DNA of 64,000 nucleotides. It comes from Ruminococcus sp. (GTDB lineage Bacteria > Bacillota > Clostridia > Oscillospirales > Ruminococcaceae). How positions within the stretch are numbered: the first letter of the stretch is position 1; each line of letters opens with the position of its first letter. This document shows, in pieces, positions 3,878 to 16,594 of the stretch. The position numbers and the translations under genes are program-made. A model generated the notes under the pieces. It made no database searches. It saw only the letters and a list, made by a program, of their open reading frames with translations, and was not told the DNA's origin. The stretch covers positions 1 to 64,000 of the forward strand of contig NZ_JAEFAJ010000014.1 of NCBI RefSeq assembly GCF_016287535.1. The letters are read 5' to 3'.

Positions 3878-4124
3878 TTATACTATGATTCGCAGCGATC
3901 GCCTTGGAGTTATTTCATTGAGCATGGGCAGGGGATAATCGTCAAAGTTTCAGAAATTATCCTGTGACTATTTTTATGAATTAAAAATTTTTTTAAAAAG
4001 ATGTCTGAATATTATTTCCTGATCCGTTTGTTATATATGAAAGGCCGATAAGATAAGATCGGTCGGAAGCTCAGGCGCCGGGCTCAATACACTACAAAAT
4101 ATTATAATTATGGAGGCATTAATT

Positions 4125-4727
4125 ATGACAAACATTAAAAGAAGAATCTCAGCTTTTGTGGCAGCATTCGCTATGATGGGAGCAGTTATCGTTCCGGCTA
4201 CTGCCAGGTATGTAACAAACGAAACAGTTATAGCAGCAGCGGCAGCGTCTAAAGTAGTTACAGGCGAAGTATATCATTGTGACGAATCTCCTCTTAAACG
4301 TGATGTAATGGCAAATACTAAGTTCAAGGCTGAACCGCATGAAAGTTCAAAAACCATTGCATCTGTCAAGAAAGCTACAACAGGAAAGAAAGTATACCTT
4401 ACAAAGTGCTGTATAAATAATGAAGGTATATGGTATTATTCAAAGTATGACAAGGGTTGGGTAAAAAGAGACAGCATAATTCCCGGACCAACGGGAGCCG
4501 AAGAAATCATTTTTAATTCTCCTGTTAGGGCTGATGCAAAGGCAAATACCAAGTTCAAGGCTGTCCCGTCTGGAAGTTCAAAAACCGTTGCATCTGTCAA
4601 GAAAGCTACTACAGGAAAAAAACTTTGTCTTACAGAGTGCGTTTTAACAGATGAAGGTGCATGGTATTATTCAAAGTATGATAATGGCTGGGTAAAAAGA
4701 GACCAATTAATTATATATCAGGATTGA
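4125..4727 (+). CDS. Secreted protein with two SH3-like repeats
   Basis: RBS TGGAGG, signal peptide, two copies of ANTKFKAxPxxSSKTxASVKKATTGKKxxLT...WYYSKYDxGWVKRD. The ORF track start at 4110 includes the RBS, so the start is moved to 4125. Confidence 0.8.
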   Translation: MTNIKRRISAFVAAFAMMGAVIVPATARYVTNETVIAAAAASKVVTGEVYHCDESPLKRDVMANTKFKAEPHESSKTIASVKKATTGKKVYLTKCCINNEGIWYYSKYDKGWVKRDSIIPGPTGAEEIIFNSPVRADAKANTKFKAVPSGSSKTVASVKKATTGKKLCLTECVLTDEGAWYYSKYDNGWVKRDQLIIYQD

Positions 4728-4874
4728 AGATCATACATGAAAATATCAGCTTTTGTCTGAAATAGCGATATAACATTGCTTTTGCGATGTTATATAGAAA
4801 ACAAACTTAAACCAATAAAAAAATAGTTCGAGTATAAACTTAAAATACTATCAAAAATTATGGAGGCATTAATT

Positions 4875-5255
4875 ATGACAAACATTAAAAGAAGAATCTC
4901 AGCTTTTGTGGCAGCATTTGCTATGATGGGAGCAGTTATCGTTCCGGCGACTGCAAAGTACATGATAAACGAATCAGCAACTGAAGTTTCAGCGGAATAT
5001 ATACCGTTTGGAAACTATAGTATTAATTACAGAGCTGATGTAAAGGCTAATACAAAGTTCAGGGAAAGCCCGTCAAAAAACTCAAAGGTAGTTGCCTCGG
5101 TCAAGAAGCGTACTTACGGAAAAAAAGTACATTTTGAAAGAGTTGTTTACTATAATTTCTATAAAGATTCCGAGTACAGCTATTTGAATGGCACATGGTA
5201 CTATTCAAAGTATGACAAGGGCTGGGTAAACTCAAACGATATAATAACGAGCTGA
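4875..5255 (+). CDS. Secreted single SH3-like repeat protein, paralog of the preceding gene
   Basis: Near-identical RBS and signal peptide to 4125-4727; one ANTKFRESPSKNSKVVASVKKRTYGKKVHF...WYYSKYDKGWV repeat. Confidence 0.8.
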   Translation: MTNIKRRISAFVAAFAMMGAVIVPATAKYMINESATEVSAEYIPFGNYSINYRADVKANTKFRESPSKNSKVVASVKKRTYGKKVHFERVVYYNFYKDSEYSYLNGTWYYSKYDKGWVNSNDIITS

Positions 5256-5455: not shown

Positions 5456-6574
5456 TTATGTCTTTGATTCACCACGAGTTTTGATCAGGTCTATAAGTTT
5501 GAGTTCTGAGAGGATCTCACCCTCGATCGGATATGTATCTTTAAGCTTCATAGCTGCCTGATACTCTTTTTCGGCAGACTGCGGATCCTGCTTGTACAGC
5601 AGATGGTATGCATACATCTGTCTCCTTTTGGATATAAATGTTTTTCCAGCATTTGCTATGAAATTGGCAAGCTCTTTATCATATACGGCATCTATTTCAT
5701 CAGCAGGAGCGTTGTTCATTATCTTGCAGAACATCAGCTCGGAACGGCTCTCAAGCTGATAATAGGGGATCGTATCATCTTTTGAACCTTCATCAAAGAG
5801 CTTTTCGGCTTCTTCAAAATCAAGACTGTCGATGAGAGCTGCGCCTTTGATGAGTTTTTCAGCAGCCTTATAGAATCCTTCACTTTCCAGTTCGTTAAGT
5901 TCTGACGGTACCTGAGAAGGAGTCAGACCATTGAACAGAAGTCCGTTAACTTTGAGCATTTTATATATTGCCGTTCTTTCGGATGGATTAAGCAACATCA
6001 TCAATATGTTATAGCCGTCATTAGGCACTTGTATTTTAAGAGGAAGCAGATTCGTTAAACTGAATAAACCTGATATGAATCCCAATATCAGAAAAAATAC
6101 CTTCAGTATCATGCTTTCAGCCGAAAATGCGATCGGAAACGCTATAAGAGCGGTGAACAGATTGAAAAGACCGCCGCCTGCATGATAAAGCAGAAAAGGT
6201 GCCTTCTGAGGGTCATCACTTTCGGGAGGCATAAGGATACACTGTCCTCCGGTACCTTTTATAGAGAGCTTTTTAAATTCATATTTATTGTTGCGTTTTA
6301 TAAGTGTCATAGAACCGACTCTGAGTAAAAGGTACTTATATCCGGTCAGCAGACCGAAAACAAGATGGCCGCCTTCGTGTATGATAATTGCCAGAAGACA
6401 GGCAGCGAACAACGAAATCAGTATGGTCAGCAATAAAGCGACTTTTTCACCGGTGCTTCTGCCTGCTGAGATCAGCTCAAGCTTTGACAATAGTTTACCT
6501 GAAAAAATTCCGCCCAAAAGGCAGCCGATCATAAATGAACCTATCGCAAGTATTTTCTTACCATTTTTTTTCAT
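5456..6574 (-). CDS. M50-family (site-2 protease-like) membrane metallopeptidase with a soluble C-terminal region
   Basis: HEGGH motif in IIIHEGGHLVFGLLTGYKYLLLRVGSM, several TM segments, charged helical C-terminus. Confidence 0.75.
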   Translation of the reverse strand: MKKNGKKILAIGSFMIGCLLGGIFSGKLLSKLELISAGRSTGEKVALLLTILISLFAACLLAIIIHEGGHLVFGLLTGYKYLLLRVGSMTLIKRNNKYEFKKLSIKGTGGQCILMPPESDDPQKAPFLLYHAGGGLFNLFTALIAFPIAFSAESMILKVFFLILGFISGLFSLTNLLPLKIQVPNDGYNILMMLLNPSERTAIYKMLKVNGLLFNGLTPSQVPSELNELESEGFYKAAEKLIKGAALIDSLDFEEAEKLFDEGSKDDTIPYYQLESRSELMFCKIMNNAPADEIDAVYDKELANFIANAGKTFISKRRQMYAYHLLYKQDPQSAEKEYQAAMKLKDTYPIEGEILSELKLIDLIKTRGESKT

Positions 6575-7054: not shown

Positions 7055-7382
7055 ATGTTTGCTCCTTTGTTTATCAGTGGATTGCTATATTTGCGTTGAA
7101 TTTCCGTATTTTTCTGTCTGCAACAGATTTTTCTTACGATGATTATACACCTAAATCTTAGATATGTCAATATACCGGGATGACGTGGTATTCGCAGATC
7201 CGAGCGCGAAGGGGTGGTGCTGTGAAAAGCTGTAAATAATCAGGAGAATACTTGAAAGTAACAAAGGCTTATGATATAATGGTTAAAAATAAATTATTTC
7301 TGAAAACACTTTGAGTTTTGACGTAAAAACGGTACTAATAAATGGAAGGTCAAATCACGCATCTGAGAGGAGGGAGCTCCCC

Positions 7383-7934
7383 ATGGATAACGGTGCAAGT
7401 AGCTACCGCCGTTTCCTTGCAGGTGATGATGAAGGACTGCTTGAGATAATCTGCGGATACCGCACGGGTCTGATACTGTATCTGAACAGCTTTGTTCAGA
7501 ACATTCATACAGCCGAAGAGCTGACAGAGGACACTTTTTCTGAGCTTGCGATAAAATGTCCTAAGTTCGGGGAGAAAAGCTCCTTCAAAACGTGGCTCTA
7601 TGCTATAGGCCGAAACATCACGGCTAAATATCTGCGCAGGCATCCAAGCTCCGTCATCGTTCCGCTGGAATCACAGGAATGTATTGCCGACGAGGAAAAT
7701 ATCGAGAGCAACTACATAAAAAGCGAACAGAAGCGCATGGTACACAAGGCTATGCACAGCCTAAGATCAGAATACCGTCAGGTATTGTATCTTTCCTTTT
7801 TTGAAGGATTCAGCAATGAGGAAGCCGCAATGATAATGAAAAAATCAAAGCGGCAGATAGAAACCTTGCTATATAACGCTAAAAAAGCGTTAAGATCTGA
7901 ACTGGAAAGGAGCGGCTTTGAGTATGAAGAATGA
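7383..7934 (+). CDS. ECF-type RNA polymerase sigma factor
   Basis: Region 2 (IHTAEELTEDTFSELAIKCPKFGEKSSFKTWLYAIGRNITAKYLRR) and region 4 (LRSEYRQVLYLSFFEGFSNEEAAMIMKKSKRQIETLLYNAKKALRSEL). AGGAGG upstream of ATG at 7383. Confidence 0.9.
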   Translation: MDNGASSYRRFLAGDDEGLLEIICGYRTGLILYLNSFVQNIHTAEELTEDTFSELAIKCPKFGEKSSFKTWLYAIGRNITAKYLRRHPSSVIVPLESQECIADEENIESNYIKSEQKRMVHKAMHSLRSEYRQVLYLSFFEGFSNEEAAMIMKKSKRQIETLLYNAKKALRSELERSGFEYEE

Positions 7935-8976
7935 TCAGGAAATGTATCAAAGTGTTCTTTCCAAACGAAATGAACATAGAAAAAAGAAAGAAAGACAGCT
8001 CCGGATAATAAAGCGTACTCTTCCTGCTTTAGCCTGTTTCTGCCTGTCTGCCGGCTTGTGGGCTGCTTTCAGGGAACGTCCTGAAAAGCTTCCGGCTATA
8101 TCTGACTCTCAGGGCATGACCGAAGCAACGACGACTGCAACAGCCGTAACGGCATCGACAGCTGTCAACGTGAGCACTTCTGCCGCAACTACAGTTTCTG
8201 CGTCGAAAACTACCATTACCGCTTCGGCCGGTACCGGCAGGACGACAAAGACCACAGCTGCCGTTACGGAAACAGCAGCAGGCACTCAGACACAACAGAC
8301 GACAGCTCAGCAGACAGAAACAAAGCCAACTTCAACGGCTGCGACAGTCACTTCGGCTGTGACCTCAACCGCTGCGACGACATCGGTGACCACATCATTC
8401 GGAGATATGTCGATAGATCCGACCCCGCCTGACAAGCGGATATACCCTTTGCAGTTTGACGATATGGAAGCTGCTGTCAATGCCGTCCTCCACCCTGATA
8501 TAGTGCTGGCATACGACGACGCAGAATCAGCCGCCGTTTATTCAGGTATGTTTGAGAGATTCAGGGACGAAGGCTTTATCTGCCGGGTGCAGGAAAATGA
8601 AAACATAGAAATTCTTGAGGGGAATGGTGTACTGCTCCATCCAAGCACTCAGAAAGAGGATACCGGCGTAAGCTATCTTGTAAAATACAAGGGCAACAAT
8701 TACCGTGTGAGATTTTTCTCCGCTGACCCAGATATCTCAGACGGCACAAATGGTATAGCGGACTATCTCAGGGAGCGCACCGGACGCGAGGAAACCATGA
8801 ATATGAGCATGAACGGTCAGTATATCAGTATATATACTGCCGACCACCGTCAGTGGTTCATGAGCGCATTTATCGACAGCAAACACTATTTCGATATCAG
8901 CACCCTTGCGACCGTGGAGGATTTCATATCCTTTTTGACCGAGTTTTCTTATGAAAAAATTGATCTTGAACAATGA
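7924..8976 (+). CDS. Putative single-TM anti-sigma factor/sensor with Ser/Thr-rich linker and extracellular domain
   Basis: Overlaps the sigma-factor 3' end; short basic cytoplasmic N-terminus, one TM, ~100-aa Ala/Thr-rich linker, then a ~170-aa domain also found in the next gene product. Confidence 0.75.
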   Translation: MKNDQEMYQSVLSKRNEHRKKKERQLRIIKRTLPALACFCLSAGLWAAFRERPEKLPAISDSQGMTEATTTATAVTASTAVNVSTSAATTVSASKTTITASAGTGRTTKTTAAVTETAAGTQTQQTTAQQTETKPTSTAATVTSAVTSTAATTSVTTSFGDMSIDPTPPDKRIYPLQFDDMEAAVNAVLHPDIVLAYDDAESAAVYSGMFERFRDEGFICRVQENENIEILEGNGVLLHPSTQKEDTGVSYLVKYKGNNYRVRFFSADPDISDGTNGIADYLRERTGREETMNMSMNGQYISIYTADHRQWFMSAFIDSKHYFDISTLATVEDFISFLTEFSYEKIDLEQ

Positions 8977-8985
8977 GGTGATATT

Positions 8986-11913
8986 ATGAGAAAGAAAATA
9001 ATGGCGGCTCTTATCGCTGCACTGTGCTGCATGGGGACAGTTCCGTGTACTTCACTTGCAGTCACAGCGGAAAGCAGTTCTTCCGAAGCCGCTGCCGATA
9101 ATTACGGATTTGACATAAGCGGTACCAAAAAGCTTACACTTGCCGATGTAGCGGAGCTCTCGAAAAAGGGCTATGAGCTCTCACTGCACGACTTTGAGCC
9201 CTACTCCGGCAAATGGTACATCAACGATATCTCCTGTGCAGCAACCTTTGATCTTGACGACGGATTTTTCCTGAGCATACACGGGGATACAGCCGGAGTT
9301 CCGCAGTCTGTCTGGCTTTACAAGGACGATTCAAGAAACGGTCATATCGATATACGTCAGGATGATGTGGAGGCTTATATCTGGAATATGACGAATAACG
9401 AGGACGATCCGGAGTACGCCGCAAAAAAGGCAATGACCCTTGATGATGTCACAGAGCTTTCCAAAAAAGGCAGCGATATCTCATGGGCTGATCTTGAAGG
9501 CTACAAGGCTCGCAGAAATACTTCTTCATCGGGTACGTTGTCCTATTATTACAGCCTTGAGAACGACTATATCCTCATTGCGGACGGAACTGAGGAAGGT
9601 ATAGATAATCTCCTCCTCACTCACTATAACTACAATAACAGCACCGACATACGCAAGGGCGGAGTAAAGGAATTCATCGACAAGGATTCAGTGTTTGAAG
9701 TCCCGGCAAAGGAGTACAGCTTTGACGATATTTACAGCATGACCACCGAAGAGGTGGCAGAGCTGTTCGCGGAAAAAGAGCTGACACAGGAAAAGGGATA
9801 CCGCGTATATTATCAGGGCAAAGACGCTGAGTTCATTTACCGTTATGACAGCGCCGCTGTGCTTTACCCGGATAATTACCTGATAATGCAGATAGAGGAC
9901 GGGAATGACATGAGATACTCCCCCACCGGAGAGCTCAGGAACTTCTGGAGCAATGACGGTTACGTATGGAATCGGGAAAAGGTCCTAAAGTCACTTGGAC
10001 TGCCTGGGGAATACTTTGACGTTTCTGTGACGACTTCACTTATCAGGAAGCCTGACTATGAAGTGAGCAAGTCCGATAATACCCCTGATCTTTCCGGCTA
10101 TGATGCGTACTGCTCCTGCCTGATAAAGTGCAGCGCCGATGATGAGAAGGAATTTGCGGCTCTGATGAATGCTGCAAGGAATTACGTGCAGCTGCACCCC
10201 GATCTTTATATGCTCAGCACAGACGAGGCTCTGCCGTATTACGGTCAGATAAAAAGCTCCGCACAGAAAATAGCGGAGGTGATATCAGAGTATATGCAGA
10301 AGAGCTCCATTCCGGGAATAACTTCCTTTAAGGCAGGAGAATCATCCGGAACCGTGTCTGTCACCTATCCTGAGGAGTACGATGAACAGGTAAGAGCTTA
10401 CGTTGACGGTATAGATACCGAAGGCGTCAGGATAGAGTTTGAACCTCACGGCAAGGGATATGATCTGAGCGGCAGTATCACCGCAGAGGACTACGCGGAC
10501 AGTATCAGCGAGTATATGAAAAAGAACTCTATCCGCGGAGAGGCTTTAGTCATTCGTGAGGACGGCGTAAAAAAGATAAGCGTGGGATACTGGGACGAAG
10601 CCTGCGAGCCTCAGATAAAGGCTTATGTTTCCCGACTCGGTATCAGCGAGGAGCTGATAAAGTACAACCATTACGAATGGACAGCGTTTAATAATGACGC
10701 CGAAAATACACAGCCACTTAAAGGCGATACCAACTGCGACGGTCAGGTGGATATGGGTGACGCTGTGCTCATTATGCAGGCTCTTGCGAATCCCAACAAG
10801 TACGGCGAAAACGGCACTGCCGAAAATCACCTTACACCTCAGGGAAAAATAAACGGAGATATGGACGGCAACGGTCTGACTGTAGGCGACGCGCAGTCGA
10901 TACAGCTCACGCTCCTTGGTATCGCAAATGTTACTGACCCGCTGGAGCCGGCAACTCCGCAGCCTGTCAGCTTCAGGGATACTGATTCTGCCGTCAAGGC
11001 TATAAACTCCGGTGATGTAAGCGGCTATACCGAAAAATACCGGGATGATTACCTGAAAATGTTCGATTACTTCCAGAACGACGGATATATATACCAGGTG
11101 AAAGCCAATGATGAGATAAAGCTGAACGATGAGTACGGTACAGCTCTTTTTCCAAAGGCTGCTTATGAAGATTACGGTACGGGCTGCTATGTGACATTCA
11201 GGGATAAGAATTATCATATCCTGTTCTATTACGCTGACGTAGATGTACTTTCCGAAACAGACGGCATTGCCGAGTACCTCATAAAGCGAATGGGGCGCAG
11301 GTCTGACAAGGAGATCACTGTAAATGATAAGAATGTCAGTCTGCTGCTGCACGAAAACGGTCAGTGCTACGCCAACGCTTTTATTGACGAGAACCACTAT
11401 TTCGATGTGATCGGAAGTGTGTCCGAAGAGGAAATGACAGAGTTCCTGAATGCCTTTGAGTACGAAAAACTGAGCATTGACAGCAGCGATATAAAAACCG
11501 CTGTCGACTGGTATTCAGATACAATGAACGAGATCGTCAGCGGCTACTGGGAGATCGTCAATCCAGGCAAGGATCACAGCGCTGTGATAAAAAACACAGA
11601 CGAGCTCAGAACATATCTTGAGGTCCTCTGCCGTGAAAAGCTCATCTCACATTATCTTGAAGTATACGATGACAGCTTTTTTGAGAAAAATGTGCTGTTT
11701 ATGGATTCCATCTATCAGCCCTACGGCTACGGAAGTTCTATCTATGAGATAAATGATATCGCTTTTTCGGACGACACTATAGATATTTCCGTAAAAACTC
11801 TGACTAACGGGGGATCAGATGTGATATCGCTGAGTATCGCAGTGATATCTGTTCCGAAGGAGAAATACAGCGGACAGACTGTCAGCTGGACGATAGAAAA
11901 ACTTTTTGTTTGA
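8986..11913 (+). CDS. Secreted protein with internal dockerin (~10720-10930) and a C-terminal domain homologous to the anti-sigma ectodomain
   Basis: Signal peptide; LKGDTNCDGQVDMGDAVLIMQALAN...INGDMDGNGLTVGDAQSIQLTLLG dockerin; repeated LTLADVAELSKKG / MTLDDVTELSKKG and ISEYMQKSSIPG / ISEYMKKNSIRG segments. Confidence 0.85.
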   Translation: MRKKIMAALIAALCCMGTVPCTSLAVTAESSSSEAAADNYGFDISGTKKLTLADVAELSKKGYELSLHDFEPYSGKWYINDISCAATFDLDDGFFLSIHGDTAGVPQSVWLYKDDSRNGHIDIRQDDVEAYIWNMTNNEDDPEYAAKKAMTLDDVTELSKKGSDISWADLEGYKARRNTSSSGTLSYYYSLENDYILIADGTEEGIDNLLLTHYNYNNSTDIRKGGVKEFIDKDSVFEVPAKEYSFDDIYSMTTEEVAELFAEKELTQEKGYRVYYQGKDAEFIYRYDSAAVLYPDNYLIMQIEDGNDMRYSPTGELRNFWSNDGYVWNREKVLKSLGLPGEYFDVSVTTSLIRKPDYEVSKSDNTPDLSGYDAYCSCLIKCSADDEKEFAALMNAARNYVQLHPDLYMLSTDEALPYYGQIKSSAQKIAEVISEYMQKSSIPGITSFKAGESSGTVSVTYPEEYDEQVRAYVDGIDTEGVRIEFEPHGKGYDLSGSITAEDYADSISEYMKKNSIRGEALVIREDGVKKISVGYWDEACEPQIKAYVSRLGISEELIKYNHYEWTAFNNDAENTQPLKGDTNCDGQVDMGDAVLIMQALANPNKYGENGTAENHLTPQGKINGDMDGNGLTVGDAQSIQLTLLGIANVTDPLEPATPQPVSFRDTDSAVKAINSGDVSGYTEKYRDDYLKMFDYFQNDGYIYQVKANDEIKLNDEYGTALFPKAAYEDYGTGCYVTFRDKNYHILFYYADVDVLSETDGIAEYLIKRMGRRSDKEITVNDKNVSLLLHENGQCYANAFIDENHYFDVIGSVSEEEMTEFLNAFEYEKLSIDSSDIKTAVDWYSDTMNEIVSGYWEIVNPGKDHSAVIKNTDELRTYLEVLCREKLISHYLEVYDDSFFEKNVLFMDSIYQPYGYGSSIYEINDIAFSDDTIDISVKTLTNGGSDVISLSIAVISVPKEKYSGQTVSWTIEKLFV

Positions 11914-11922
11914 ATAAAACCG

Positions 11923-11949
11923 AAAGCTCCGCATATGCGGAGCTTTTTC
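11923..11949 (+). terminator. Rho-independent terminator
   Basis: AAAGCTCCGCATATGCGGAGCTTTTT. Confidence 0.85.
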
Positions 11950-12889: not shown

Positions 12890-15800
12890 ATGAAAAAAAC
12901 GTGCAAGAACATTACTGCATTTATTCTCTCACTTGCTGTATTAGCAGGAAATGCAGTAAATATTCTGCCAGACAGCAATGCACTTACGGCAAGAGCTGCA
13001 GATATTTCTGCTTCGGAAGTGCTGGGAAAAGACGAATCATATTTTGATGCAGAGACAGGCACTCTTCATCTCAAGGGCTATGTAAGAAACAGCAGTGCCG
13101 GCGATGGCATTATACTTCCTTACGGAGTCAGCAAAGAAGAGGTCGAGAATATAGTCGCCGAAAAAGGGACTGTATTGCCTGAAAACTGCCACTGTTTATT
13201 CTATGGCTTTGCAAATATCCTGTCTGTGGATATGAAGAATGCTGATGCGTCAGATGTAACGGATATGTCCGGTATGTTTTCTTTTAATACCGCTCCAAAA
13301 TACATTGATGCAAAAGCGTATGATAATCCGTGGTATGATTTCTGGGGAGCTGGTGAGCCGTGGCTTGAAAGAAGTGTTAAGATTGACGTAGCAGGTCTGG
13401 ATACAAGTAAAGTGACCAATATGAGCGGTATGTTCTCTGACGTCTATATCGGACCGCTTGATCTCAGCAGCTTCAACACAGGCAATGTTACAGACATGAG
13501 CGGTATGTTCTATAAATGCGTTCTGCGCAATGCACTTGATCTCAGCAGTTTTGATACGGGCAATGTTACTGATATGCAGGGTATGTTCTGCAGCAGCCTT
13601 ATTGATTCAGTCGATCTGAGCAGGTTTGATACAGGCAATGTTACTGATATGGAAAATATGTTCTGGCACAGTAACTTTGACGCACTTGATCTCAGCAGCT
13701 TTGACACGGGTAAGGTTACTGATATGGGTGGTATGTTCTGTGAATGTTACCGCCTTGAATCGCTTGATCTCAGCATTTTTGATACAAGTAATGTAACTGA
13801 TATGAGCGATATGTTTGAACTATGCAATGATCTTACGACGCTTGATATCAGCGGCTTTGATACATCTAATGTTACGAATATGAGGAGTATGTTCAATTCG
13901 TCAAGTGTAAGATCATTAGATCTGAGCAGCTTTGATACCTCAAATGTTACTGATATGGGCTGGATGTTTTCAGATTGTTCTCTTCTTGAAAGCATAATCG
14001 CAGGCGATAAATGGTCAACAGGATCAGTTACATCTGATACTCATATGTTCTTTTCTTGTAAAAGCCTCATGGGCGGAGCAGGAACAGCATATGATGAAAA
14101 ACATATTGGTACTGAATACGCTCATGTTGACGGCGGAAGGAATAATCCCGGATACTTTACTTACGCAAGAGCTGCAAAGGATAAATCTTACTTTGACAGA
14201 GAAACAGCTACTCTTCATCTCAGCGGTCTGGTAAGGAATCGCGGTGCATATAATGGCGTTATACTGCCTGCAGGAGTTAACGGGGAAGAGGTAGAACATC
14301 TTGTTGCCGACAAAGGAACTGTTCTTCCTCAGGATTGCAGTTTCTTCTGTATAGGTATGCCGAATCTTAAATCCGCAGATCTTAAAAATGCTGATTCTTC
14401 AGATGTAACTGATATGAGTTTCATGTTCGCATTATCGGATGACAGCGGCTGTAACCTGACCTCCATAGATGTCAGTGGATTTGATACATATAATGTTACA
14501 AATATGAAGGGTATGTTTAAGTGCTTCGGCGGTACAAAACTTGACCTCAGAAGCTTTTGGACTTCTAATGTTAAAGATATGTCTCAGATGTTTGAAGGCT
14601 GCAGATGCTTGTCAGATCTTGTCTTTGACTTTGAATTTTCTACAGAATCGGTTACAGATTTTTCCTTTATGTTCTATGGCTGTTCAAATCTGAAATCTGT
14701 TGATACCCAATATAGTTTTAGAACGATCAGCGCAGAAAGTATGGCAGGTATGTTTTCAAACAGTGGTGTAACTTCTCTTGACCTGAGCGGCTTTGATACA
14801 AGAAGAGTTACTGATATGAGCCGTATGTTTGAAAAGTGCCACGGACTCACGTCGCTTGATCTCAGCAGTTTTAATACAAGCAGTGTTACTGATATGTCGG
14901 GAATGTTCACATACTGCACATACCTCAGATCACTCGATATCAGCAGCTTCGATACAAAAAATGTTACTGATATGAAGAATATGTTTTCATATTGCAACAG
15001 GCTCAGAGCACTTGATCTGCGCGGCTTTGATACAGGAAATGTCGGTAATATGAAAGAGATGTTCCTGCGCTGTATGACATTGAAGACACTTGACCTCAGA
15101 AAATTTGACACGAAAAAAGTGACTGATATGTCCGGAACATTTGCATACTGCACTTCTCTTAAAACTATATTGGTCAGCAGCAAATGGTCAGCAGAAGCTG
15201 CCTGCGGCAAGGATACATTTACAGGCAGCAGTAAACTTACAGGCGGCGCAGGTACGGTATACCGTGATAATAGCAGGAGTGTGGGGTATGCCCGCGTCGA
15301 TGGCGGCAAATCAGCTCCCGGTTATTTTACTTCTACGGATGCCAAAGAAGACGAATCATACTTTGATGAGGGAACCAGGACACTTCATCTAAAAGGCTAT
15401 ATCCGGAATAACCCCGGCAATTATACGTGTCTTGTTCTGCCTGACGGAGTTTCGACCGAGGACGTTGAGCACGTTATAGCTGAAAAGGGTACCATATTTC
15501 CTGAAGACTGCAGCTATATGTTCTACAGGCTGCGTAATTTACAGTCTGCTGATCTGAAGAACGCAGATACATCAAATGTTACGGATATGTCCCATATGCT
15601 TGCTTTTAACGGTTTATCGCGGATGTATTACTTTGAGTTATATGAATCAGTAGATTGGTATGAGTTTACAGGTTTAAATGAATTTGAGCAGGATTATTAT
15701 TATGTCACTGTTGACGACAGAGGCAATGATATCTGGCTTATAAAGCCCTGGCTTGACTCACCGCTTCGTGAAATTGATCTAAGCGGCTGGGATACAAGCA

Positions 15801-16594
15801 AAGTCCGGGATATGACAATGATGTTTGAAAATCGCTGGAACATTTCAAATCTGGACATAAAGCATTTTAATACAAGCAATGTTACCGATTTTTACGGTAT
15901 GTTCCATGAATGCAGTTCGCTTGAATCTCTTGATCTCAGCAGTTTTGATATAAGTAATTCCACAAGTACAGCATCTATGTTTTATAATTGCAACTCTCTT
16001 ACATCACTTGACCTGAGCAGCTTTGACACAAGCAATATCACAAATACAGCAGCTATGTTTTATGGTTGCAGTTCTCTTACATCACTTGACCTGAGCAATT
16101 TTGATACAAGCAATGTTACCTGTATGGATTTAATGTTTTATTATTGTTGTTCTCTTAAAACACTTGATCTGAGCAATTTTGACATAAGCAATGTTAAGAA
16201 TACTTGGTTAATGTTTGCTGATTGCTGTGAACTTGAAACAATAATTGCAGGCAGAAACTGGTCGGATAACAATGTTGAAGATAGTTATGCAATGTTTATT
16301 CTTTGCCCAAAACTGACAGGTGGTGCGGGAACAGTATATGATGAAGATCATATTGATATTGAATATGCTCGTATCGACGGCGGCGAATCGGCTCCCGGAT
16401 ACTTTACAGCACCGAAAAAAGCTCAGGAAAGCAAGGATACGGAGGATATCTCCAGTATTATAAGTATACCTGAAGATGTGATGAACGATGTTGCATCGTA
16501 TATTTCAGATATTCTGAATGACCCTGAGATCAGCGGCATAGCTGATAAAGCGGCTGACTACATTGACAGATTAACATCAATGAATGTGTACTGA
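12890..16594 (+). CDS. Secreted BspA/DUF285-type repeat protein, three tandem super-blocks
   Basis: Many LDLSSFDTSNVTDMSGMF repeats. Three blocks, each opening with DxSYFDxxTxTLHLxGxxRN and closing with GGAGTxYD...AxxDGGxxxPGYFT. Confidence 0.9.
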   Translation: MKKTCKNITAFILSLAVLAGNAVNILPDSNALTARAADISASEVLGKDESYFDAETGTLHLKGYVRNSSAGDGIILPYGVSKEEVENIVAEKGTVLPENCHCLFYGFANILSVDMKNADASDVTDMSGMFSFNTAPKYIDAKAYDNPWYDFWGAGEPWLERSVKIDVAGLDTSKVTNMSGMFSDVYIGPLDLSSFNTGNVTDMSGMFYKCVLRNALDLSSFDTGNVTDMQGMFCSSLIDSVDLSRFDTGNVTDMENMFWHSNFDALDLSSFDTGKVTDMGGMFCECYRLESLDLSIFDTSNVTDMSDMFELCNDLTTLDISGFDTSNVTNMRSMFNSSSVRSLDLSSFDTSNVTDMGWMFSDCSLLESIIAGDKWSTGSVTSDTHMFFSCKSLMGGAGTAYDEKHIGTEYAHVDGGRNNPGYFTYARAAKDKSYFDRETATLHLSGLVRNRGAYNGVILPAGVNGEEVEHLVADKGTVLPQDCSFFCIGMPNLKSADLKNADSSDVTDMSFMFALSDDSGCNLTSIDVSGFDTYNVTNMKGMFKCFGGTKLDLRSFWTSNVKDMSQMFEGCRCLSDLVFDFEFSTESVTDFSFMFYGCSNLKSVDTQYSFRTISAESMAGMFSNSGVTSLDLSGFDTRRVTDMSRMFEKCHGLTSLDLSSFNTSSVTDMSGMFTYCTYLRSLDISSFDTKNVTDMKNMFSYCNRLRALDLRGFDTGNVGNMKEMFLRCMTLKTLDLRKFDTKKVTDMSGTFAYCTSLKTILVSSKWSAEAACGKDTFTGSSKLTGGAGTVYRDNSRSVGYARVDGGKSAPGYFTSTDAKEDESYFDEGTRTLHLKGYIRNNPGNYTCLVLPDGVSTEDVEHVIAEKGTIFPEDCSYMFYRLRNLQSADLKNADTSNVTDMSHMLAFNGLSRMYYFELYESVDWYEFTGLNEFEQDYYYVTVDDRGNDIWLIKPWLDSPLREIDLSGWDTSKVRDMTMMFENRWNISNLDIKHFNTSNVTDFYGMFHECSSLESLDLSSFDISNSTSTASMFYNCNSLTSLDLSSFDTSNITNTAAMFYGCSSLTSLDLSNFDTSNVTCMDLMFYYCCSLKTLDLSNFDISNVKNTWLMFADCCELETIIAGRNWSDNNVEDSYAMFILCPKLTGGAGTVYDEDHIDIEYARIDGGESAPGYFTAPKKAQESKDTEDISSIISIPEDVMNDVASYISDILNDPEISGIADKAADYIDRLTSMNVY

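Follow-up and report, generated by a model that had tools for sequence, protein, structure and literature searches.

A membrane protein encoded with an ECF sigma factor shares a domain with the adjoining dockerin protein in Ruminococcus sp.: a candidate sensing cassette

Introduction

Why does a membrane protein encoded beside an extracytoplasmic function (ECF) sigma factor display a relative of a domain found in the secreted dockerin protein encoded by the next gene? The question is raised by a 64,000-nt stretch (the window) of contig NZ_JAEFAJ010000014.1 from Ruminococcus sp., a rumen fibre degrader with 113 dockerin matches in its genome. Coordinates are positions in the window unless a locus is named, and L and G numbers denote fetched loci and genomes. 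The genes of the ECF sigma factor (7383-7934), the single-transmembrane (TM) protein (7924-8976, the putative sensor) and the dockerin protein (8986-11913, the cargo) are arranged in tandem on the + strand. The locus was analyzed computationally through gene order, gene overlap, homology, a conserved promoter, co-variation of sigma factors with partner N-termini, and recurrence with other domains. It is read here, with somewhat better than even probability, as an autoregulated cassette of ECF sigma factor, membrane anti-sigma factor and secreted cargo, in which a tethered relative of a cargo domain senses the ligand of the cargo. The dockerin protein is probably under the control of this sigma/sensor switch.

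The shared domain

A preliminary description had likened the ectodomain of the TM protein to the C-terminal region of the next gene product. BLASTP between the two proteins gave one real alignment (residues 164-349 against 653-832; 32% identity, 54% positives, E 1e-29) and a whole-genome search with the ectodomain matched the sensor and the adjoining cargo only. The likeness was therefore upheld, with two copies in the genome and the coordinates correct to within a few codons. The placement was not: the cargo copy (10963-11478, residues 660-831, located by BLASTP and genome-search homology to the ectodomain) is internal, with the dockerin on one side and a C-terminal region of ∼140 residues on the other. 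The domain, designated type A, had been described as unrecognized, and neither copy matched Pfam or NCBIfam; a PDB profile search likewise found nothing.

The sensor copy (8446-8967) was delimited by homology to the cargo domain and by an AlphaFold model, which gave an alpha/beta fold (pLDDT 90.9, pTM 0.88). Foldseek returned no PDB match for this model at E ≤ 0.001. RseB/MucB, PsbP and TM1622 (1vr8) were considered as folds and not used (E ≥ 0.0037, query-normalized TM-scores ≤ 0.42). Unrelated folds for the two copies had been named as grounds for abandoning the comparison and did not emerge: the copies align over their full length, the AlphaFold model being of the sensor copy only. Residues M35, L64, E71, D72, G74, Y107, D144, H147 and Y148 (window sensor domain numbering) are invariant in type-A sensors and cargos, which suggests a binding function common to both.

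A type-A profile scan of named genomes found relatives in Ruminococcus only, the carriers being Ruminococcus sp. RGIG9739 (a metagenome-assembled genome from yak omasum), R. flavefaciens ATCC 19208, in which the type-A unit is L049, and R. flavefaciens YAD2003. Over 125 genomes of the genus there were 30 matches in 16 genomes, and the type-A proteins examined were sensors or secreted-type proteins, most of the latter with a dockerin. Sensors never formed a single group in any bootstrap tree of the domain. A clean division into a sensor clade and a cargo clade was not recovered, and the well-supported branches force neither interleaving nor more than one exchange.

The three proteins of the unit

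The sigma factor (183 aa, from ATG 7383) matched Sigma70_r2 and Sigma70_r4_2 above the Pfam cut-off (region 4 E 3.6e-10) and the NCBIfam sigma70-ECF model TIGR02937 above cut-off (E 6.6e-23). With only sigma2 and sigma4 regions in a protein of the usual ∼180 aa, it is of the ECF type, as first proposed. A start at TTG 7311, which would lengthen the frame, is unlikely, the context of ATG 7383 being kept across the family.

The sensor gene overlaps the sigma gene by 11 nt, the arrangement also seen in the family. Its product has a basic cytoplasmic N-terminus of ∼32 residues, predicted to lie inside by the positive-inside rule, one TM segment (residues ∼32-49, 8017-8070; KKKERQLRIIKR then TLPALACFCLSAGLWAAF), a Thr/Ser/Ala-rich stalk (8101-8418, by composition), common to the family, and the type-A ectodomain.

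The cargo gene starts 9 nt past the sensor stop codon and encodes 975 aa with a hydrophobic, signal-peptide-like N-terminus; homologous genes also lie 3' of the sensor in the orthologous unit L044. Its type I-like dockerin (10720-10917, the end of the second repeat set by eye) scored 24.9 bits against PF00404 in the genome search (10720-10875; cut-off 22.9) and 21.0 bits by hmmscan, below the cut-off, and both calcium-loop repeats can be made out in the sequence. The cargo thus combines the signal peptide and the dockerin with two calcium-binding repeats that define a cellulosomal protein. In L044, the closest relative (sigma 96% identical), sigma factor, sensor and cargo are kept amid flanking genes unlike those of the window, so the three behave as one unit. 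A perfect palindrome, AAAGCTCCGCATATGCGGAGCTTT, with T-rich flanks (11923-11946) resembles a terminator at the operon end; the hairpin scan gave an overall count no higher than in shuffles.

A family of sigma/TM-protein couples

The window sigma factor belongs to a genus-level family of paralogs, mostly 45-60% identical to it and present at E ≤ 1e-60 in 69 of the 125 genus genomes. About 120 loci were fetched and 122 sigma/TM couples examined. In practically every case the sigma gene overlaps the downstream gene. The product of the latter has a basic N-terminus that is conserved, crosses the membrane once and carries, on a Thr/Ser-rich stalk, an ectodomain that varies. Across the 122 couples the sigma factor co-varies with the first 62 residues of its partner (Mantel r 0.74, with 0 of 1000 permutations as high), as a sigma/anti-sigma pair should, while ectodomains have been swapped among sensors.

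That the TM protein is a surface protein merely translated with the sigma factor, and no anti-sigma factor, is given very little credence. Its cytoplasmic part is very short and neither Pfam nor NCBIfam recognizes an anti-sigma domain in it, as such a protein would have it. Against this stand the gene overlap in essentially every couple, the co-varying N-terminus and the predicted N-in single-TM topology; RsiV-type anti-sigma factors, moreover, also have a short cytoplasmic part.

Most genes that follow a sensor gene within 80 nt encode a protein with a signal-peptide-like N-terminus and either a dockerin or repeats resembling those of one. By hand counts in 24 genus genomes, family size correlates with dockerin number (Spearman 0.81; partial correlation corrected for genome size 0.57, p 0.004). 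In the genome of the window a fourth sigma paralog (L043, C26:53924-54373; 44% identical) is broken, the match containing a stop, and the dockerin-type frame that comes next is shortened; this is likely a decayed unit.

Two family cargos are dockerin-serpins (L047:6556-8991, Pfam E 7.8e-75; L089:6880-9012, Pfam E 6.2e-74). They favor a protease-bait explanation, by which the displayed domain is a decoy whose cleavage by an external protease frees the sigma factor for synthesis of secreted inhibitors or protected cargo; sigma release by proteolysis is moreover the rule in this class (PMC10202637). Serpins occur in just 2 of 30 adjoining genes, however, both beside sensors whose ectodomain has no match in the cargo, and neither the sequence nor the fold of the type-A domain ties it to inhibitors. 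The explanation is accordingly held to be highly improbable.

Sensor-cargo matches across units

When each ectodomain was compared with its own adjoining gene product (phmmer, E ≤ 1e-3), 14 of 73 complete cases matched, with five domain types. Iterated profiles added L210 as a sixth type, giving 15 matching units, all in the sigma clade of the window. The types do not detect one another by sequence. Type A was found in the window unit, L044, L049, L182, L190 and L205; type B in L055, L195, L197, L198 and L199; type C in L189 (60% over 89 aa); type D in L202 (73% over 162 aa); type E in L204 (53% over 133 aa); and type F, by iterated profile, in L210. A hand tally found that 15 of the 19 type A-F sensors with a complete cargo match that cargo. 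Near-orthologs are among the matches (window/L044, L049/L182), so that independent events are fewer than these counts and are better gauged by the number of domain types. As background, when sensors are paired with cargos other than their own, 6.8% of the pairs match, owing to shared dockerins and the widespread type-A and type-B domains. Type B was modelled by AlphaFold as all-beta (pLDDT 88.5), with no significant Foldseek match (the RsgI4 sensor domain, at rank 41, was likewise not significant). Unrelated folds, alpha/beta and all-beta, thus fill the same role.

A further matching unit was found in genome G051 (sensor/cargo 52%). Relative to L205 its sigma factor is 44%, its sensor N-terminus 21% and its ectodomain 70% identical, and its cargo carries matching domains; between L205 and the window the corresponding values are 68%, 47% and 32%. 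By these identities the sensor domain and cargo of G051 have moved jointly onto another sigma chassis, which argues that the pairing is functional.

These data bear on the proposal that the likeness is a product of domain shuffling, the nearest gene donating an ectodomain by recombination with no regulatory meaning. Adjoining genes are natural donors, the module pool is common to the genus, and the majority of sensors do not match their own cargo. On the other hand, the match is seen with no fewer than six unrelated domain types, a sensor-domain/cargo pair stayed together when its sigma chassis changed, sensor domains retain the residues that are invariant in cargo domains, and the window copies have diverged to 32% identity with both still intact. 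Shuffling of this kind is considered distinctly unlikely.

At four other loci the sensor matches a divergently transcribed upstream gene. The cargo of L046 (4522-6171) has an LPXTG anchor, no detected dockerin and a module, present three times, that faintly resembles the sensor ectodomain; this pair was kept out of the counts, the own cargo ranking first of 73 with only 4.8 bits. The ectodomain of L178 (G097:C21) resembles a ∼200-aa module in the cargos of many other units (iterated profiles found it in 15 non-sensor proteins), and no cargo gene adjoins that of the L178 sensor on its strand.

Fused sensor-cargo frames

Fourteen units have a sensor frame that continues without a stop beyond the stalk into an internal signal-peptide-like start, with a recognizable dockerin in most: L075 (3557-5671), L087, L077, L057, L101, L102, L110, L113, L115, L175 (where the open frame continues beyond a short ectodomain), L187, L188, L091 and L092. 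The C31 unit of the same genome as the window (L042) is probably also fused. A Shine-Dalgarno sequence precedes the internal ATG in 12 of the 14, several of which are close relatives, the frequency at other internal Met codons being 20 of 178 (p 4e-9), and it is kept despite different codon readings (ERS, EGS, QGG). Such a gene could make tethered and secreted forms of one protein. Frames with an internal start argue that the pairing of sensor and cargo is functional, and the window unit may be the split version of this design.

The fused frames would also put the cargo itself on the sensor, as expected if the sensor domain took stock of the cargo by binding it homotypically, or by binding its scaffold or surface-protein partner, and so reported how much of it had been made or assembled. 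The relatedness of sensor and cargo domains and their tandem copies in cargos (three type-B in L197, two type-A in L205), as in homotypic assembly, would fit. The window copies are, however, 32% identical, and the invariant positions fit a ligand pocket equally well; this alternative is regarded as possible and rather unlikely.

Promoters

A bipartite ECF-like element, CTTTGAG-N15-GGTACTAA (7309-7338, +), lies ∼50 nt 5' of the sigma start, is conserved in the clade of the window and is the proposed autoregulatory site. Paralogs carry TGAGAG-N16-CGTCTAAT and variants. The -10-like box was present in 94 of 123 sigma upstream regions (3.7 in dinucleotide shuffles) and the bipartite form in 70 of 123 (0.55 in shuffles), the patterns having been defined after partial viewing of the same sequences, so that the counts lean towards the motif. 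The second element, which resembles the CGTC -10 of ECF promoters, varies with sigma clade. A CGTC-like or variant -10 before the own gene is the pattern of ECF autoregulation, and promoter activity is predicted from it. A sigma-A type promoter, TTGAAA-17-TATAAT (7252-7280, +; 11 of 12 consensus positions plus TG), lies further upstream. A lone match of this kind would be weak evidence by itself; most orthologs and many paralogs have a similar promoter, comparably placed.

Genome-wide, by pattern search, the exact promoter of the window occurs once, at its own locus, so the regulon of the window sigma factor is probably its own operon. A wide regulon was rejected, matches with 3 mismatches being near control counts. 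The paralog promoter TGAGAG-N16-CGTCTAAT was seen in the same genome ahead of unlinked genes whose secreted products have Thr-rich linkers (L136, L137 and L143; C15:7138, C16:48462 and C45:73048, the last with one mismatch). These genes are candidate trans targets of other sigma factors in the genome.

Neighboring genes

A gene for an M50-like membrane protease (5456-6574, -; HEGGH motif, tetratricopeptide-like C-terminal part by eye, Pfam M50 sub-threshold) was considered as the site-2 protease of the unit; it was not found at any related locus and is therefore not part of the unit. The + strand also encodes tandem paralogous small secreted proteins with the first ∼30 residues identical (4110-4727 and 4860-5255) and a 1234-aa secreted protein (12890-16594) with many 'FDTSNVTDMSxMF' repeats (BspA/DUF285-like by eye).

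Comparison with known systems

Likeness to the RsgI proteins in logic had been proposed from the window alone, and it gained support as the sensor/cargo match proved to recur and not to be a single coincidence. Like SigI-RsgI of Clostridium (Acetivibrio) thermocellum, the couples are paralogous sigma/anti-sigma operons (the anti-sigma part here putative) in a cellulosome maker, with a TM protein bearing a stalk and a C-terminal sensor module, a predicted autoregulated promoter, and a sensor module related to modules of the dockerin proteins that would be regulated. The GH10 module of RsgI6, for example, shares 57% identity with Xyn10D, a member of the RsgI6 regulon (PMC4711584). Unlike SigI, which has region 2 and a sigma-I C-terminal domain without region 4, the Ruminococcus sigma factor is of the ECF type with regions 2 and 4. 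RsgI_N (PF12791) was not found in 75 family sensors or in the window genome; it exceeded cut-off in 5 of 125 genus genomes with one match each, and across the genus there is at most one match per genome, mostly sub-threshold. The promoter boxes also differ, the sensor modules are uncharacterized domains and not carbohydrate-binding (CBM), glycoside hydrolase (GH) or PA14 modules, and the matching protein comes from the adjoining gene of the operon, or even from the open frame of the sensor itself. No autoproteolytic juxtamembrane domain, a SigI/RsgI trait, was evident in the window sensor, where the TM segment passes directly into the Thr-rich stalk; no dedicated model was searched. The presence of region 4 and the failure to find RsgI_N place the unit outside the SigI/RsgI family. 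It works like that system without being a member, the sensor module shared with a secreted protein supporting the first statement and not membership.

SigV-RsiV of Bacillus subtilis and relatives likewise pairs an ECF sigma factor with a single-TM partner. The RsiV ectodomain is a direct receptor for lysozyme, and activation proceeds by regulated proteolysis (PMC4183432, PMC5014341, PMC10202637). No partner-protein family in common with the window TM protein was detected with NCBIfam. The ligand of RsiV, in contrast, is a host enzyme, and SigV-RsiV is not known to show a large paralog expansion with ectodomain swapping and cargo pairing.

The cargo belongs with the dockerin proteins of unknown function of R. 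flavefaciens, having a signal peptide, a dockerin and unknown modules. In R. flavefaciens FD-1, 155 putative unknown domains were counted in 118 dockerin proteins, and dockerin-serpins were reported too (PMC2930009). No sigma factor is mentioned in this connection in PMC2721979, PMC2930009 or PMC4081043. Searches combining ECF sigma/anti-sigma, Ruminococcus and dockerin found no description of the family; most subscription journals lay outside the search, and absence is not proof.

Discussion

Anti-sigma activity, ligand sharing and release by regulated proteolysis are proposed for the cassette by analogy with RsiV/SigV and RsgI/SigI. At rest the cytoplasmic N-terminus of the TM protein (7924-8976) would hold the sigma factor. 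The type-A domain, borne on its stalk, would meet the ligand of its counterpart in the cargo (a plant-wall or matrix component), and binding would expose the TM protein to cleavage and free the sigma factor; a strong match to an M50 RasP-like site-2 protease is encoded elsewhere in the genome. The sigma factor would then fire the CTTTGAG/GGTACTAA promoter, raising sigma factor, sensor and cargo together. The cargo would dock into the cellulosome through its dockerin and compete for ligand with the sensor, which would close the loop.

Several points weigh against this reading. The type-A fold gives no hint of a ligand, and copies only 32% identical need not bind the same thing. Linked inheritance alone can yield co-variation of neighbors and would explain part of that seen here, and the TM protein, though co-operonic with the sigma factor, membrane-spanning and co-varying at its N-terminus, has no anti-sigma domain recognized by Pfam or NCBIfam. 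None of the sensors with the common short domains matches its own cargo, and two type-A sensors (L181 and L186) have cargos without a type-A domain. The pairing rule is real, and it is limited to a subset of units and not universal.

More broadly, it is put forward tentatively, at less than even probability, that Ruminococcus runs part of its cellulosome through a large family of 'mirror sensors', each a tethered copy of a secreted module encoded by two genes or by one dual-start gene, new specificities arising as sensor-domain/cargo pairs move between sigma chassis. In the dual-start version the tethered form would come from the first start and the secreted form from the internal Shine-Dalgarno and signal peptide.

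The regulation of cellulosomes in rumen ruminococci is yet to be understood (PMC4081043), and a dedicated suite of RsgI receptors has been reported for Acetivibrio-type cellulosome makers only (PMC11557425). The family of couples offers a concrete candidate, open to test, for the cellulosome regulators still missing in ruminococci. The combination of a sigma factor, a tethered domain and a dedicated promoter would make a natural modular biosensor. Functions for the many unknown modules of dockerin proteins might also be assigned through the pairing rule, since the agent that releases the sigma factor should be the ligand of the paired cargo domain.

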